Assembly: GCA_024689465.1 (NCBI GenBank)
Contig: JAILDL010000038.1
Coordinates: 1-64,000 of the forward strand
Length of the DNA stretch: 64,000 nt
Source of the DNA: Lachnospiraceae bacterium
Lineage (GTDB): Bacteria > Bacillota > Clostridia > Lachnospirales > Lachnospiraceae
Direction of reading: 5' to 3'
Position 1 is the stretch's first letter, and each line of letters opens with the position of its first letter. A model generated the notes under the pieces. That model had not been told where the DNA came from and did no database searches. It was given only the letters and a program-made list of their open reading frames with translations. Made by a program: the position numbers and the translations under genes. This document shows positions 1,052 to 59,996 of the stretch, piece by piece.

Positions 1052-2809
1052 TTACCTCGTTTTAAGTGGAATGTGAAAGGTGATCTTTGTATATTCCCCT
1101 TCTTCGCTGTCTATGGTCACTGCATCCCGATTATCGCAATAGAAGCGGATGCGGTCAATGGTTCCCTTTAAGCCGAAACCGGAGTGCTTTTCTTCTTCAT
1201 CGGAGCCGGCTTCTCCGGCCATCACCCGTTCGATGGCTTCCCGGCTCATGCCCACACCGTCGTCGTATACGCTGACGATGATCCCGTCTTCGGAAAGACG
1301 GGTTGTGATCCGGATGATCCCGGGTTCGCCCTTTGGCCGGATCCCGTGGTAGATACAGTTTTCCACCAGAGGCTGCAGCAGCAGCTTGGGGATCATCAGA
1401 TCCTGGGTTTCCTCCTGGATATCGTATTCATCCTGAATGATGTCTCCGTAGCGCAGTTTCTGCAGGGACAGGTAATCCCGGATGATGCTGACTTCTCTGC
1501 GGACGGTGATCTCACGGTCTCCCTTGCTCAGGAAATTCCGGTAGAAATTGGACAGCGTTTCCAGTGCTCCGTATACATCCATGGCCCCTGCTTCATAGGC
1601 CATGTAGCTGATGGTCCCCAAAGAGTTATACAGAAAATGGGGCTTGATCTGCTCATTCAGCACACGCATCTGGGCTTTCTGTACGGATTTCTCGTTTTCC
1701 AGAAGGCGGGTAAACAGGTCGTTTAAGTAGTCGATCACGCTGTTGTAGCTGTCCACCAGGATACCGATCTCGTTGGGCGGAGCTTCCAGATCCACCTTTT
1801 CCAGCCAGCCGGATTCCTTGGTCTTTTCCATGGCACTTGCCAGCTCGTAGATGGGCTTGTTGATCCTGCGGGAAACAAATACTACGGCAAAGAAGATGGC
1901 AATGACAAAGGCGCCCAGCAGAAGGGTCAGCATATAAACATAGATGGTGGGCACGGAATAAATATCCGCGGAGTTCTCACAGATCAGCACCAGAGGCATA
2001 TCAGCCAGGGCATAGGAGGAGATCATCCGATTGGGACCGGGGTTTTTTAGCTCCGTGTGGAGCACGGTTTCCTTGGGCATGGAAGGATCGTAGTAGGAAA
2101 CCAGTTCCTGGTTCCCCGACAGGAAGGTACCGTCCTCTGCCAGGATGCACAGCCTGGAGGTTTCCTGTACGCTGACGATCATATCCAGCATCTTGGTGGA
2201 AACGTTGATGAGCAGCACACCGGTTTTCTGCTGGGTGTAGATATCATAGATGGAACGGGCAATGGTGATGATCTGGCTGCCGTTTTTGTGCTCGATGGCG
2301 CCGTTGGCGTTCATGAGGATCACAGCGCCTCCTCTTTTTGCAAAGATGGGCTCTGTCCAGGCCGGATCATTCATCAGAGTGAAATTTACATTGTACTCGG
2401 CGCGGCCGGTACTGACATAGGCATTGTCGTTACGGAAGATGAAAACGGAGTCCAGATTGGTGCTCACGTTTAATACGTCCAGGATACCGAAACGGGCATC
2501 GTTGACGATCCCGCGGTCCACATATTTGGCATTCAGGAAGGTGGTTACCTTTTCATTGAGCATGACCAGACGGGAGATATCCTTGTAACTGTCGATGCCG
2601 GAGCGAAGATTTCCGGCAACGGAAGCGATCAGGGTCTCCGCTTCCCGAACTTCCGAGTCTTTGCGGGATTCTCTGGAAAGAACCAGAAGAGCAATGACAA
2701 AGGCGATACCGAAGATCATGAGGGCGGTCAGAATGACCAGCCACATTTCCGATGCAAGGGACCTTTTGGGCTTACGCAGTGGCCACAGAGTGATTTTTTC
2801 TTTATCCAT
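1052..2809 (-). CDS. YesM-type sensor histidine kinase
   Basis: This membrane sensor kinase of the LytS/YesM group has 585 aa from the chosen start. It has a transmembrane helix at about 20-45, an extracellular sensor region of about 240 residues, a second helix at about 289-313, a HAMP linker, and a kinase core with phospho-accepting His391 in EQIKPHFLYNS. An N box (ENCIYHG) and a G box (DDGVGM) follow. An in-frame ATG at 2845 lies inside the upstream terminator stem, so the start at 2809 is preferred, although no strong Shine-Dalgarno is visible. It pairs with the downstream response regulator and may sense a sugar taken up by the adjacent importer (inference). Confidence 0.9.
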   Translation of the reverse strand: MDKEKITLWPLRKPKRSLASEMWLVILTALMIFGIAFVIALLVLSRESRKDSEVREAETLIASVAGNLRSGIDSYKDISRLVMLNEKVTTFLNAKYVDRGIVNDARFGILDVLNVSTNLDSVFIFRNDNAYVSTGRAEYNVNFTLMNDPAWTEPIFAKRGGAVILMNANGAIEHKNGSQIITIARSIYDIYTQQKTGVLLINVSTKMLDMIVSVQETSRLCILAEDGTFLSGNQELVSYYDPSMPKETVLHTELKNPGPNRMISSYALADMPLVLICENSADIYSVPTIYVYMLTLLLGAFVIAIFFAVVFVSRRINKPIYELASAMEKTKESGWLEKVDLEAPPNEIGILVDSYNSVIDYLNDLFTRLLENEKSVQKAQMRVLNEQIKPHFLYNSLGTISYMAYEAGAMDVYGALETLSNFYRNFLSKGDREITVRREVSIIRDYLSLQKLRYGDIIQDEYDIQEETQDLMIPKLLLQPLVENCIYHGIRPKGEPGIIRITTRLSEDGIIVSVYDDGVGMSREAIERVMAGEAGSDEEEKHSGFGLKGTIDRIRFYCDNRDAVTIDSEEGEYTKITFHIPLKTR

Positions 2810-56122: not shown

Positions 56123-56195
56123 GCGATAGTGGCGTAGTTGGTAACGCGCGACCTTGCCAAGGTCGAGACCGCGGGTTCGAGCCCCGTCTATCGCT
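56123..56195 (+). tRNA. tRNA-Gly (anticodon GCC)
   Basis: Acceptor GCGATAG pairs with CTATCGC; anticodon stem GACCT/AGGTC encloses loop TGCCA with anticodon GCC; T arm GCGGG-TTCGAGC-CCCGT is normal. CCA is not encoded. It has its own promoter and a strong terminator immediately after. Confidence 0.95.
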
Positions 56196-56237: not shown

Positions 56238-56259
56238 TGGGGACGGGGTTAGGGGGTCA
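56238..56259. repeat. Dispersed GC-rich repeat, copy 4, overlapping argS stop
   Basis: Plus-strand core GGGGACGGGGTTAGGGG followed by GGTCA. Read on the minus strand, its first three bases TGA are the argS stop codon. It is the same element as at 24.70, 38.95 and 45.76 kb. Confidence 0.65.
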
Positions 56260-57957
56260 CATTTCTTCCGGACATTCCATTCCCAGGAGGCCTGCAGCAT
56301 CCGAGATGAGTTTTTGCACGATGTTTACGAGAGCCAGGCGGCTTTCCTTCGCTACGATATCTGCTTCTTTTAAAATAGGCCGATCCTGATAGAACTTATT
56401 AAAGTCGGTACAAAGGGCAATCAGATATTTGGCGACGATAGACGGCTCGTTGTTTTCAGCTGCAGATTGAACAGCATCCTCATATCCGCCAATGGTCTTT
56501 ATAAGGGCGAAGGTGACGTCATCTGTCAGGGCTTCGCAGGAAAATGCATGGTCCGAAATCTCCTGGCCATATTTCCGCAGGACGCTCTTTGCCCGGGCAT
56601 AGGTGTATTGAACATAAGGTCCGGTGGTTCCGTCAAAACTGAGCACATCTTTCCAGGAAAAGTTGATGTTCCGGATCCGCTGATTGAACAGATCATGGAA
56701 GATGACTGCTCCGACCCCTACCTGTTTCGCTACGGTCTCTTTATCTGCAAGAGCGGGATTCTTTTCCTCGATCAAATCGCCGGCACGTTTGATCGCCTCC
56801 TTTAGAATATCCTCTGCATAGATGATATTTCCCTTTCGCGTGGAGAGCTTTTCTCCGCCCAAACTGACCAGCCCGTAGGGAACATGCACCAGCTCATCGC
56901 TGTAGTCATACCCCATCAACTCAATGGCTTTGAATACCTGTTTGAAATGCAGGGACTGTTCCAAGCCGGTCACATACAGGCACTTATCAAAGTGATAGGT
57001 TTCCTTCCGGTACAGGACCGCTGCAATATCACGGGAATGATAGATTGAGCTGCCGTCCTTTTTGGTGATCATGCAGGGTGGCATATCATAGGCAGACAGG
57101 TCGATGACATTGGCGCCCTGGCTTTCCATAAGGAGGCCTTTTTCTTCCAGTAAGGCAGCCAGAGCAGGAACCTTTTCTCGATAAAAGCTTTCTCCGGTAT
57201 AGGAATCAAAGGAGATTCCCAGTATGTCATACACCCGCTCAAATTCGGTGAGGCTGATCTCTTTAAACCATTTCCAAATGGAAAGGGCTTCTGCATCTCC
57301 CTGCTCCATCTTTACGAACCAGGCTCTTGCTTCGTCCATCAGTTCCGGATGTGCATTCTTTTCCTGGTCAAATTTGACATAGATATCCAGAAGTTCCTGA
57401 ATGCCGTTTTTCTCCACGGCTTCCTTGCTGCTCCAGTTTTTATAAGCAACGATCAGCTTTCCGAACTGGGTCCCCCAATCCCCGAGATGATTGATCCGCA
57501 CGACCTGAGCTCCCAGCTTTTGATAGATCTTATACAGGGAATTGCCGATGATGGTGGTACGCAGATGCCCTACGTGGAAATTTTTGGCAATATTGGGGGA
57601 GGAGTAGTCCATGCAGACGGTTTGACCCGCAAAAATCGGATGGACGCCCAGATCATCCCCCTGCACCGCTTCCAGTGTCGCTTTCGCAAAAAGGGTGCGG
57701 TCTGCATACAGATTGCAATAGCCACCGGTTGCAGTCACGCTTGCAAGGCCCAGGCTTTCCTTTTGGCCATCCAGATGCGTCTTCAGTTCCTGGGCGATCC
57801 GGGCCGGATTTTTATGCAGCACTTTTGCAAAGGAAAAGCAGGGGATCGCCAGGTCTCCCAGGGCAGGATCCGGCGGCGTCTCCACGATCACTGTATCTGC
57901 CGGGAATTGATCCTTTCCCAGTATCTCGGCGATTGCATTACAGATTGTTTCTTTCAT
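56257..57957 (-). CDS. argS: Arginyl-tRNA synthetase
   Basis: This class I synthetase charges tRNA-Arg. It has 566 aa from ATG 57957 behind GGGAGAC; the frame runs further upstream but that part is leader. It has the N-terminal Arg-N domain (about 1-85), HIGH-type motif NFHVGHLRTT, KMSKS-equivalent LSTRKG and the anticodon-binding DALR domain at the C-terminus (about 445-566). Upstream are a dedicated promoter, a leader ORF rich in Arg codons and alternative RNA stems (see the leader features), so supply of charged tRNA-Arg probably controls it. The stop codon lies in a dispersed repeat. Confidence 0.97.
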   Translation of the reverse strand: MKETICNAIAEILGKDQFPADTVIVETPPDPALGDLAIPCFSFAKVLHKNPARIAQELKTHLDGQKESLGLASVTATGGYCNLYADRTLFAKATLEAVQGDDLGVHPIFAGQTVCMDYSSPNIAKNFHVGHLRTTIIGNSLYKIYQKLGAQVVRINHLGDWGTQFGKLIVAYKNWSSKEAVEKNGIQELLDIYVKFDQEKNAHPELMDEARAWFVKMEQGDAEALSIWKWFKEISLTEFERVYDILGISFDSYTGESFYREKVPALAALLEEKGLLMESQGANVIDLSAYDMPPCMITKKDGSSIYHSRDIAAVLYRKETYHFDKCLYVTGLEQSLHFKQVFKAIELMGYDYSDELVHVPYGLVSLGGEKLSTRKGNIIYAEDILKEAIKRAGDLIEEKNPALADKETVAKQVGVGAVIFHDLFNQRIRNINFSWKDVLSFDGTTGPYVQYTYARAKSVLRKYGQEISDHAFSCEALTDDVTFALIKTIGGYEDAVQSAAENNEPSIVAKYLIALCTDFNKFYQDRPILKEADIVAKESRLALVNIVQKLISDAAGLLGMECPEEM

Positions 57958-57982
57958 CTCATGTCTCCCTTTATTTTTTGAT

Positions 57983-58035
57983 AAAAAAAGAACCGCAATG
58001 GATTTAAGGCTTTTCGCTAAATCTATTACGGTTCT
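57983..58035 (-). terminator. Attenuator terminator in the argS leader
   Basis: On the minus strand AGAACCGTAATAGATTTA (from 58035) pairs with TTAAATCCATTGCGGTTCT (to 57989), one base unmatched; six more T residues follow. It lies only 25 nt before the argS start, after its own promoter, so it must be bypassed for argS to be expressed. Confidence 0.85.
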
Positions 58036-58061
58036 GTTTATATTCTTTATGAACAGCACCG
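58029..58061 (-). promoter_or_regulatory. Possible antiterminator stem in the argS leader
   Basis: CGGTGCTGTT (58061-58052, minus strand) can pair with AACAGAACCG (58038-58029) with one mismatch. The second arm overlaps the 5' arm of the terminator, so the two structures exclude each other. Further upstream, CAGACATAaGTTC in the leader ORF pairs with GAACgTATGTCTTG just before the antiterminator arm. Confidence 0.6.
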
Positions 58062-58110
58062 CACGGCAACAAGACATACGTTCCTGCAACCATGCGAATG
58101 ATCGGTATGG

Positions 58111-58170
58111 TTACAAGAACTTATGTCTGCGCTGTCTGCGTCTTAAGCTGTTTGTAAGATACATGTTCAT
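58111..58170 (-). CDS. Arg-rich leader peptide of argS
   Basis: This 19-codon ORF has a good GGAAGG site 7 nt before its ATG. It encodes MNMYLTNSLRRRQRRHKFL. Five of the 19 residues are Arg, clustered as RRRQRR (codons AGA, CGC, AGA, CAG, CGC, AGA). It lies between the argS promoter and the attenuator. Stalling of a ribosome for lack of charged tRNA-Arg at these codons would be expected to favour the antiterminator. It is too short to appear as a normal gene and is unlikely to act as a protein. Confidence 0.75.
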   Translation of the reverse strand: MNMYLTNSLRRRQRRHKFL

Positions 58171-58199
58171 AGACTAACCTTCCTGAAATAATTGAATTC

Positions 58200-58229
58200 A
58201 CTATACGCTACCGTCACAACTTCTGTCAA
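58200..58229 (-). promoter_or_regulatory. Promoter of the argS leader
   Basis: On the minus strand TTGACA (58229-58224), an 18-nt spacer and TATAGT (58205-58200). The predicted start, near 58193, gives a leader of about 235 nt. Confidence 0.65.
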
Positions 58230-58262
58230 CAAAAAAGAAATCAGTTTTTCCCGAAAAGCTTT

Positions 58263-59996
58263 TTACATCTGTAACTTCTGCATATTGTAATAGAACCCCT
58301 TCTTGGCCATGAGCTCCTCATGGGTTCCCTGCTCCACAATGCTGCCTTCGTGGATCACCAGGATCAGATCGGCATTTATGATGGTGGACAGGCGGTGGGC
58401 GATGGCGATGATGGTTCGCTTGCCTGCCAGCTGGCTGATGGCGGCCTGGATCTGCCGTTCGGTCTGTACATCCACCGAGGCGGTGGCTTCATCCAGGATG
58501 ATGATAGGAGAGTTGCGCAGGATCGCCCGTGCAATGGATACCCGCTGTTTTTGCCCGCCGGAGAGGCGAAGCCCACGCTCACCCACCTGGGTATCGTACT
58601 GATCCGGCATATTCAAAATGTCCTCATGGATATTGGCGGCTTTAGCGGCGGCGATGATCTCCTCCCGGGAGGCATCGGGCCTTGCATAGCCGATGTTCTC
58701 CGCGATGGACCCGTTAAACAGGAAGGTATCCTGCAGAACCGGGGAAATATTGTGCCGAAGGCTTTCCAGGGTTACATCCCTGATGTCCCTGCCGTCAACG
58801 AGGATGCGGCCTTCCTGTGGATCGTAGAATCGGGAGATCAGCTGTGTCGCGGTGGTCTTTCCCACACCCGTAGGGCCAACCAGAGCCACCATCATGCCGG
58901 GCTTGCAGGAAAAGGATACGTCCTTCAGCACGGGGATCTCATTGCTGTAGTGGAAACTTACATGTTCAAAGGAAACCCCGCCTTTTACGTCCTTAAGCGG
59001 AGTAGCGTTTTCCGAATCCGTGATGGCAGAAGGGGTTTCCAGGATCAGAGCCACACGCTCTGCACCTGCAAGGGACTGCTGCAGGTCCTCGATCAGCTTT
59101 GCCAGCCCGGATACCGGCTGGTAAAAGAGGGAAAGATACAACATGAATGCCACGATATCCGCAACCCCCAGCTGTCCTTTATAGGCCAGATACCCACCAA
59201 AGAATACCACCAGGATGGTACCGATGGAGGACAGGAATTCTACGCTGGGGTGGAAGATCCCGCTGGCGCGCAGGGCCCGGAGCATGGCCCGAACCTGTTC
59301 AAAGCTCTTTTCCTTGATGCGGCTGCCTTCGTAGGCTTCCTGACCAAAGGCCTGGATCTCATGCAGGCCCGACAGGGAATCCTGCAGTTGGGCGTTGAGC
59401 TGGCCCATGCTTTTCTGGGACGCCCGGAAAAAGGGACGAACGACTTTGGCAAAAATGACGCCGGAGATCAGGATCAGTGGAATGGGGAAACAGGTGATCA
59501 GAGCCAACTTTACATTCACCGTCAGGAGGATGCAGAGCACGCCCATAAAGGTCACGACATTGGTGATCATATCCGGGATCATGTGGGCATACAAAAGCTC
59601 AAAATCCCTGGTATCGTTTACGATCCGGCTCATGAGATCGCCGGTCTGCTTATCATGGAAAAAGCCCAGATCCAGACTTTGCAGTTTATCGTACAGTCTG
59701 CTGCGCAGATCGCCCACCAGATACCAGGCGGCACGGTGTGCCAGGTAGTTACTGAGAAAGCGGAAGAGGACCCGCAGCAGATACAGGCCAAGCAGCAGAG
59801 CAGCAAGGCCCTGCACTCTGGTGAGGGCTGCTTCATCCACCCCGTCTCCCACGATCCCCACCATAGTGGAGAGAACCTTTGGCGCGGCCAGATTGACGGC
59901 AGTAAGCCCAAAAGTGGCCAAAATGGCGATCACATATAATCCCTTATAACGAGCTGCCTCTTTGGTCAGCTTCCACAATACCTTCCATACTTTCAT
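58263..59996 (-). CDS. ABC exporter, MsbA/LmrA type, probably homodimeric
   Basis: This fused exporter has 577 aa from ATG 59996 (behind AAAGGATC). Six helices (about 15-310) are followed by an ATPase with Walker A GPTGVGKTT, signature LSGGQKQR, Walker B IIILDEATASVD and the H-loop IAHRLSTI. Both halves of a composite site are canonical, so a homodimer is sufficient. It is monocistronic on the minus strand. The substrate is unknown; lipid or drug export is typical of the family. Confidence 0.92.
   Translation of the reverse strand: MKVWKVLWKLTKEAARYKGLYVIAILATFGLTAVNLAAPKVLSTMVGIVGDGVDEAALTRVQGLAALLLGLYLLRVLFRFLSNYLAHRAAWYLVGDLRSRLYDKLQSLDLGFFHDKQTGDLMSRIVNDTRDFELLYAHMIPDMITNVVTFMGVLCILLTVNVKLALITCFPIPLILISGVIFAKVVRPFFRASQKSMGQLNAQLQDSLSGLHEIQAFGQEAYEGSRIKEKSFEQVRAMLRALRASGIFHPSVEFLSSIGTILVVFFGGYLAYKGQLGVADIVAFMLYLSLFYQPVSGLAKLIEDLQQSLAGAERVALILETPSAITDSENATPLKDVKGGVSFEHVSFHYSNEIPVLKDVSFSCKPGMMVALVGPTGVGKTTATQLISRFYDPQEGRILVDGRDIRDVTLESLRHNISPVLQDTFLFNGSIAENIGYARPDASREEIIAAAKAANIHEDILNMPDQYDTQVGERGLRLSGGQKQRVSIARAILRNSPIIILDEATASVDVQTERQIQAAISQLAGKRTIIAIAHRLSTIINADLILVIHEGSIVEQGTHEELMAKKGFYYNMQKLQM

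Follow-up and report, generated by a model that had tools for sequence, protein, structure and literature searches.

We propose that the argS gene of this Lachnospiraceae bacterium is most likely controlled by ribosome-mediated transcription attenuation, in which translation of an arginine-rich leader peptide would sense charged tRNA-Arg through a five-segment RNA switch. On the sequence evidence, the synthetase is very probably made only when Arg-tRNA runs short, and this without a T-box. Our confidence is high for the class of mechanism and lower for one of its steps, the pairing of segments B and C, and for the biological role.

The elements of the system lie on the minus strand of the 64,000-nucleotide stretch that was analysed (the window). 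The argS gene (56257-57957, ATG at 57957) encodes a 566-residue arginyl-tRNA synthetase that we call the leader-bearing type A enzyme; the product scores 496 bits against TIGR00456 (cut-off 262) and carries the Pfam catalytic, DALR and N-terminal domains. A consensus scan placed a promoter upstream, TTGACA (58224-58229) and TATAGT (58200-58205) separated by 18 nt, with 11 of 12 consensus matches, and six related loci (L003, L005, L006, L007, L062 and L064) have a promoter-like pair at a closely similar distance (46-56 nt) upstream of segment 1 of the switch. Next come a Shine-Dalgarno sequence, AGGAAGG (58178-58184), and a 19-codon open reading frame, MNMYLTNSLRRRQRRHKFL (58111-58170; ATG at 58170, TAA at 58111). 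Its five Arg codons form the cluster RRRQRR, encoded by AGA CGC AGA CAG CGC AGA; with Arg at 4.1% in the long ORFs of the window, at least five Arg in 18 codons has a probability of 0.0007. The arms of an intrinsic terminator (58035-58026 and 57998-57989) are followed by a run of seven U (57983-57989), a feature that nearly all relatives have, and argS begins 25 nt past this run. The terminator is absent from a simple-pattern terminator scan, which cannot accommodate its interrupted stem and loop. Folding of the leader yields -78.9 kcal/mol, compared with -50.1 +/- 4.3 in 200 shuffles (z -6.8). The promoter, the reading frame with its ribosome site, the Arg cluster and the U-run terminator had all been described in an earlier sequence-only reading, and each was located. 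The locus presents the sequence features of an attenuator: a leader ORF with a ribosome site between promoter and gene, Arg codons ahead of argS, a terminator and a mutually exclusive antiterminator. On the plus strand, a tRNA-Gly (gcc) gene (56123-56195) lies just past the 3' end of argS.

Searching named genomes with the ArgS protein returned 21 relatives, 14 of which have the leader; nearly all of these carriers are named Lachnospiraceae, comprising Butyrivibrio, Anaerocolumna, Lachnoclostridium phytofermentans, Lacrimispora and metagenome assemblies. A covariance model, R1, was built from the window and these 14 relatives and found more leader copies in genomes of the family; wherever more than 40 genomes were searched with models, seven candidates per genome were scored. 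The resulting alignment of argS-type leaders contains 22 distinct sequences, namely the window and 21 from related loci. All 22 have an SD-like site, a start codon and an in-frame stop, the stop being in the same place throughout, and each leader holds four to six Arg codons. Two peptide subfamilies can be recognized, LRRRQRRHKFL and LRRRxxRRKLL, with five Arg each, not all of them at corresponding codon positions. Whole codons are the unit of every indel in the Arg cluster, and in the first subfamily the fourth Arg codon, which is unpaired, is CGC, AGA or AGG. As far as the aligned sequences tell, arginine content is preserved through both codon change and displacement. Loss of the leader ORF or its Arg codons from relatives had been set beforehand as the refuting result; both are present in 22/22 leaders. 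Going by the codons alone, the sensed signal would be Arg-tRNA.

Conserved pairings define the RNA switch. Segment 1 (58135-58152) is the coding stretch AACAGCUUAAGACGCAGA, which covariation pairs with segment C when free of ribosomes. Segment A (58108-58119) spans the leader stop codon and pairs with B; segment B (58081-58096) pairs with A or C; segment C (58052-58073) pairs with segment 1, B or D; segment D (58026-58036) pairs with C as the antiterminator or with E as the terminator; and segment E (57989-57998) is the 3' arm of the terminator. Covariation was scored over 25 aligned leaders, three of them from the aspS leaders described below. In the terminated fold expected without ribosomes (segment 1:C, A:B and D:E), 92.4% of cells are paired and 15 pairs show compensatory double changes across the 25 rows. 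The 55 double-change cells compare with 15.2 +/- 3.9 in shuffles, none of 500 reaching as high, and sliding the partners by 1-3 columns brings the paired cells below 50%. Within this fold, the two segment 1:C helices have 83% and 90% of cells paired and seven compensatory pairs (for example, C-G to U-A at columns 15/94 in nine rows), A:B has 96.3% and three compensatory pairs, and D:E has 93.2%.

The alternative pairings are likewise conserved. C:D, which excludes D:E through the common segment D, is paired in 86.0% of cells across the 25 leaders; B:C has 97.0% of cells paired, and when these structures are slid by 1-3 columns the values drop to 34-52%. Variation in both runs mostly through G-U, as expected if C has to fit three partners and B two. 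Among argS leaders, B:C shows no compensatory change, only wobble changes; its one compensatory pair occurs in seven closely related aspS leaders and is reached by 61 of 500 shuffles. In the alignment of those seven aspS leaders, one position covaries in all five segments (A57, B74, C103, D138 and E163), a joint change that the interlocked chain predicts and that here comes from few, related sequences. These results bear out the expectation of covarying stems in relatives, and the stem at 58029-58061 that had been proposed to share the 5' arm of the terminator is the C:D pairing (C, 58073-58052; D, 58036-58026). The three-part scheme of the sequence-only reading was right about this sharing and incomplete otherwise, since the data fit five segments and segment 1:C, A:B and B:C had been missed.

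Together, these pairings suggest how the switch might operate. With ample Arg-tRNA, the ribosome would reach the stop codon inside segment A and cover it, allowing B:C to form; D would then be free to pair with E, and transcription would stop at the terminator before argS. When Arg-tRNA is short, the ribosome would stall on Arg codons 1-3 (AGA CGC AGA, 58135-58143), the proposed sensing codons, covering segment 1 and leaving A free to pair with B; C would then pair with D, the terminator would not form, and argS would be made. If the leader carries no ribosome, C may be held by segment 1, which would favour termination.

We modelled this choice by folding each of the 22 leaders, truncated after segment D, while masking the ribosome footprint; the calculation assumes equilibrium folding and ignores polymerase speed, and it shows only that the geometry is workable. 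When the A site was placed at Arg codon 1, 2 or 3, the mean probability of C:D, taken over discriminating pairs in the 22 leaders, was 0.86, 0.84 and 0.81, respectively, and 20-21 of the 22 leaders exceeded 0.5. At positions from Arg codon 4 through the stop, the mean was 0.14-0.38; a ribosome on Arg codons 4-5 (CGC AGA, 58126-58131) or later shifts the fold to B:C, whose probability rises from about 0.05 to 0.56-0.83 between these two sets of positions. For the window's own leader, C:D had a probability of 0.90-0.94 at Arg codons 1-3 and 0.21 at the stop. The switch survived most of the footprint sizes that we tried, with mean C:D probabilities of 0.78-0.91 at Arg codons 1-3; when the footprint extended 17 nt in front of the A site, B:C was no longer preferred at the stop position, and when it extended only 8 nt the switch point lay farther downstream, beyond the second Arg pair. 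Folding with no ribosome gave a mixed outcome, the mean C:D probability being 0.45 across the 22 leaders and the value for the window 0.80, so low expression in the absence of leader translation is not predicted for the window. In these simulations, ribosome position decides between the C:D and B:C folds.

A leader peptide so basic could also act through its own sequence: nascent RRRxxRR might arrest the ribosome, perhaps by binding free arginine or an antibiotic. The C-terminal part of the peptide is indeed highly conserved (LRRRxxRR.K.L), and R-L-R leaders have been tied to antibiotic sensing in Bacillota (uORFC-6-1 / hflX, PMC8632094). Yet the conserved nucleotides double as stem arms, so that part of the peptide conservation reflects the RNA; the positions between the Arg clusters are free to vary (Q, E, F, D, V or N), the second RR is displaced by one codon between the subfamilies, and R-L-R occurs in one leader only. 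As the regulated gene is moreover the synthetase that matches the codons, we regard peptide arrest as unlikely, and favour attenuation by codon reading.

Still less probable is control by a trans-acting factor, in which ArgS itself, uncharged tRNA-Arg or a protein would bind the long hairpin and set the terminator, leaving the ORF incidental. In favour of such control, the hairpin is a long one whose strong conservation extends outside the ORF, and T-boxes demonstrate that tRNA can bind leaders. Against this, no T-box or other known RNA family was recognized: at gathering score over the window, Rfam reports no T-box in the argS leader, in agreement with the sequence-only reading, and extending the search to matches with E up to 10 in 57900-58270 still gives no T-box (RF00230), a model that does detect T-boxes at two other loci (L016 and L067). 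Among the Rfam amino-acid leader families, Thr_leader reaches 14.4 bits against a cut-off of 55, and all others are below cut-off. A bound factor would also leave aside the conservation of the SD, start, stop, frame and Arg codons in 22/22 leaders, the prediction of the switch from ribosome positions alone, and a similar aspS leader that carries Asn/Asp codons where the Arg codons stand.

The genome holds a second argS elsewhere, which the sequence-only reading had not noticed; this type B enzyme is leaderless and 30% identical to the window's ArgS. Among 150 genomes of the family, type B is present in nearly all and type A, the window's type, in 14. In the ArgS tree, the leader-bearing type A enzymes form one clade (18/18, support 100/100), with the leaderless type A enzymes as its sister clade (10/10, support 95/89). 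The idea that the element is a constitutive partial terminator or a relic, its ORF being there by chance, is contradicted by conservation and is very improbable, since the leader is present in 18/18 members of a deep ArgS clade with covarying stems, although decayed or orphan copies do occur (L061, L058).

Genomes with a leader-bearing type A enzyme also hold type B in 18 of 19 cases, the exception being a metagenome assembly (L006), and type B is found in none of the ten genomes with leaderless type A. Counted by genome, the link between the leader and a second ArgS is near-perfect; we do not treat it as a statistical association, because the tree gives a single origin and hence one evolutionary event rather than an independent correlation. 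The pattern suggests that the leader may have arrived with the conversion of type A into a second, inducible enzyme. Bacteria of this clade normally have a leaderless ArgS in addition to the controlled one, so the latter's likely role is that of an on-demand ArgS, aiding charging under arginine scarcity or when the main enzyme does not work properly.

Several leader copies stand apart from an intact argS. One well-conserved argS leader has lost its gene by deletion, and just the final 28 codons of argS are left next to it (L058, genome G008; tblastn E 2e-7). An orphan leader before a methyltransferase gene has lost its first Arg codon and has a weak U-run (L061, genome G116), and another precedes a BlaI/BlaR-type pair with a BlaI-type repressor gene (L060) in a genome, G345, that carries a second, argS-linked copy (L064). 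In Lacrimispora celerecrescens 152B (L020), the leader-bearing argS appears broken, with tblastn pieces in different frames and part of the C-terminal half missing; a sequencing error is possible.

Hits of the argS-leader model were also obtained in three genomes from a single genus of a different clostridial family (per-genome E 2e-4 to 5e-4), and matches in this genus always precede aspS. With aspS leaders included in the model, the element was found in 7 of 11 genomes of the genus (L067, L068, L069 and L078-L081 in genomes G752, G593, G633, G792, G791, G794 and G793), and four of these seven had not contributed to the model. The aspS leader peptides, MLKVQFIKLNNGYNI, MLNFQFIKLNNGYNI, MLNFRFIKLNNGYNI, MSKLQLINLNHGDNI and MIKVQFEKLNRGDNI, contain Asn and Asp codons and lack the Arg cluster, and segments A to E are all present. 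AspRS in bacteria that make Asn on tRNA charges both tRNA-Asp and tRNA-Asn; the Asn codons would be explained if the AspRS is of this type. Downstream of the aspS-leader terminator is a T-box (89.4 bits, E 2e-19; curated cut-off 93), and the transcript thus appears to carry a leader-type and a T-box charging sensor in series.

A CUUGU-NN-CUAUG core in segments A and C is common to the argS and aspS leaders, which favours descent over convergence; the weak first-pass E-values do not favour common descent. We tentatively entertain a portable scaffold, in which both leaders would derive from one RNA with the peptide recoded between Arg and Asn/Asp, and with the aspS version in series with a T-box. 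A module common throughout Clostridia was considered and rejected: exact-pattern searches with the A-B core and the B-C core gave hits only in the aspS genus and in a single his operon, which makes the core a rare element. Also set aside were five weak, terminator-only model matches (L063, L084, L086, L088 and L089) and five opposite-strand matches, which are the leader's own palindromic stems and not separate elements (L065, L066, L070, L071 and L082). At a locus in another clostridial family (L087, about 1460-1635, plus strand; model E 1e-4), the ORF MFNPNLLQNIIFVHHHR, with three His codons, precedes hisZ-hisG; its A-B-C-D-E layout makes it a probable his-operon attenuator in Clostridia. At L090 (about 1440-1634, plus strand; E 0.008, a weak match), a leader ORF, repeated hairpin arms and a terminator precede a brnQ-like gene, of the branched-chain amino acid transporter type.

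Leader-peptide attenuators are well known from the proteobacterial his, trp and thr operons, and pheST of E. coli is an example on a synthetase. The argS leader shares with them a short ORF of cognate codons, alternative hairpins and an intrinsic terminator, and its multi-segment chain resembles the his leader. It differs in its target, argS, and its codon, Arg, in matching no Rfam leader family at cut-off, and in a segment A that takes in the stop codon and nearly repeats C. In Bacilli, His leader peptides before a hisS paralog and hisZ are predicted to act by attenuation (Naville and Gautheret 2010, PMC2965389); those hisS leaders are likewise from Bacillota and on a paralog of a duplicated synthetase gene, and differ in using His codons and hisS (PMC2965389). 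The earlier statement that Bacillota more usually rely on T-box control is fair, with the qualification that leader peptides on synthetases have precedent there. Ribosome-mediated attenuation by Cys codons is also predicted for the uORFC-8-2 motif before cysS in Rhodobacterales (PMC8632094), again a synthetase with cognate codons, although in alphaproteobacteria, with Cys and with another structure. Arginine sensing by ribosome pausing at consecutive Arg codons is described for orf34-speF of Salmonella, where a ribosome that has reached the stop codon blocks a hairpin lying further on; that system differs in its target, an ornithine decarboxylase gene, and in acting through Rho, RNase G and access to the RBS, with no intrinsic terminator (PMC6386406). 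T-boxes (RF00230) resemble the argS leader in using antitermination to control synthetases by tRNA charging, sometimes for a single one of several copies, as on one of three argS genes in B. cereus ATCC 10987 (PMC2494555), and differ in binding tRNA directly; none is found at the argS leader.

In a literature search that covered subscription journals thinly, we found no earlier report of an argS leader-peptide attenuator. Synthetase control by leader-peptide attenuation is already known, and the argS/Arg case would be an addition to that class; an amino-acid attenuation layout on argS, as first suggested from the window, is supported by the conserved ORF and Arg codons, the covarying stems and the alternative pairings. 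With it, argS and arginine join the few Bacillota synthetase genes that are apparently read by the ribosome and not by a T-box. The five-segment design places a stop codon in a hairpin arm of which a repeat follows downstream, and it lends itself to testing at the level of single bases; the aspS relative with its T-box in series would allow both modes of sensing tRNA charging to be compared on one transcript. Leader and RNA switch are conserved across one clade of gut and rumen bacteria, and the tie between the leader and one of two ArgS enzymes points to a division between a constant and an inducible synthetase in these organisms.
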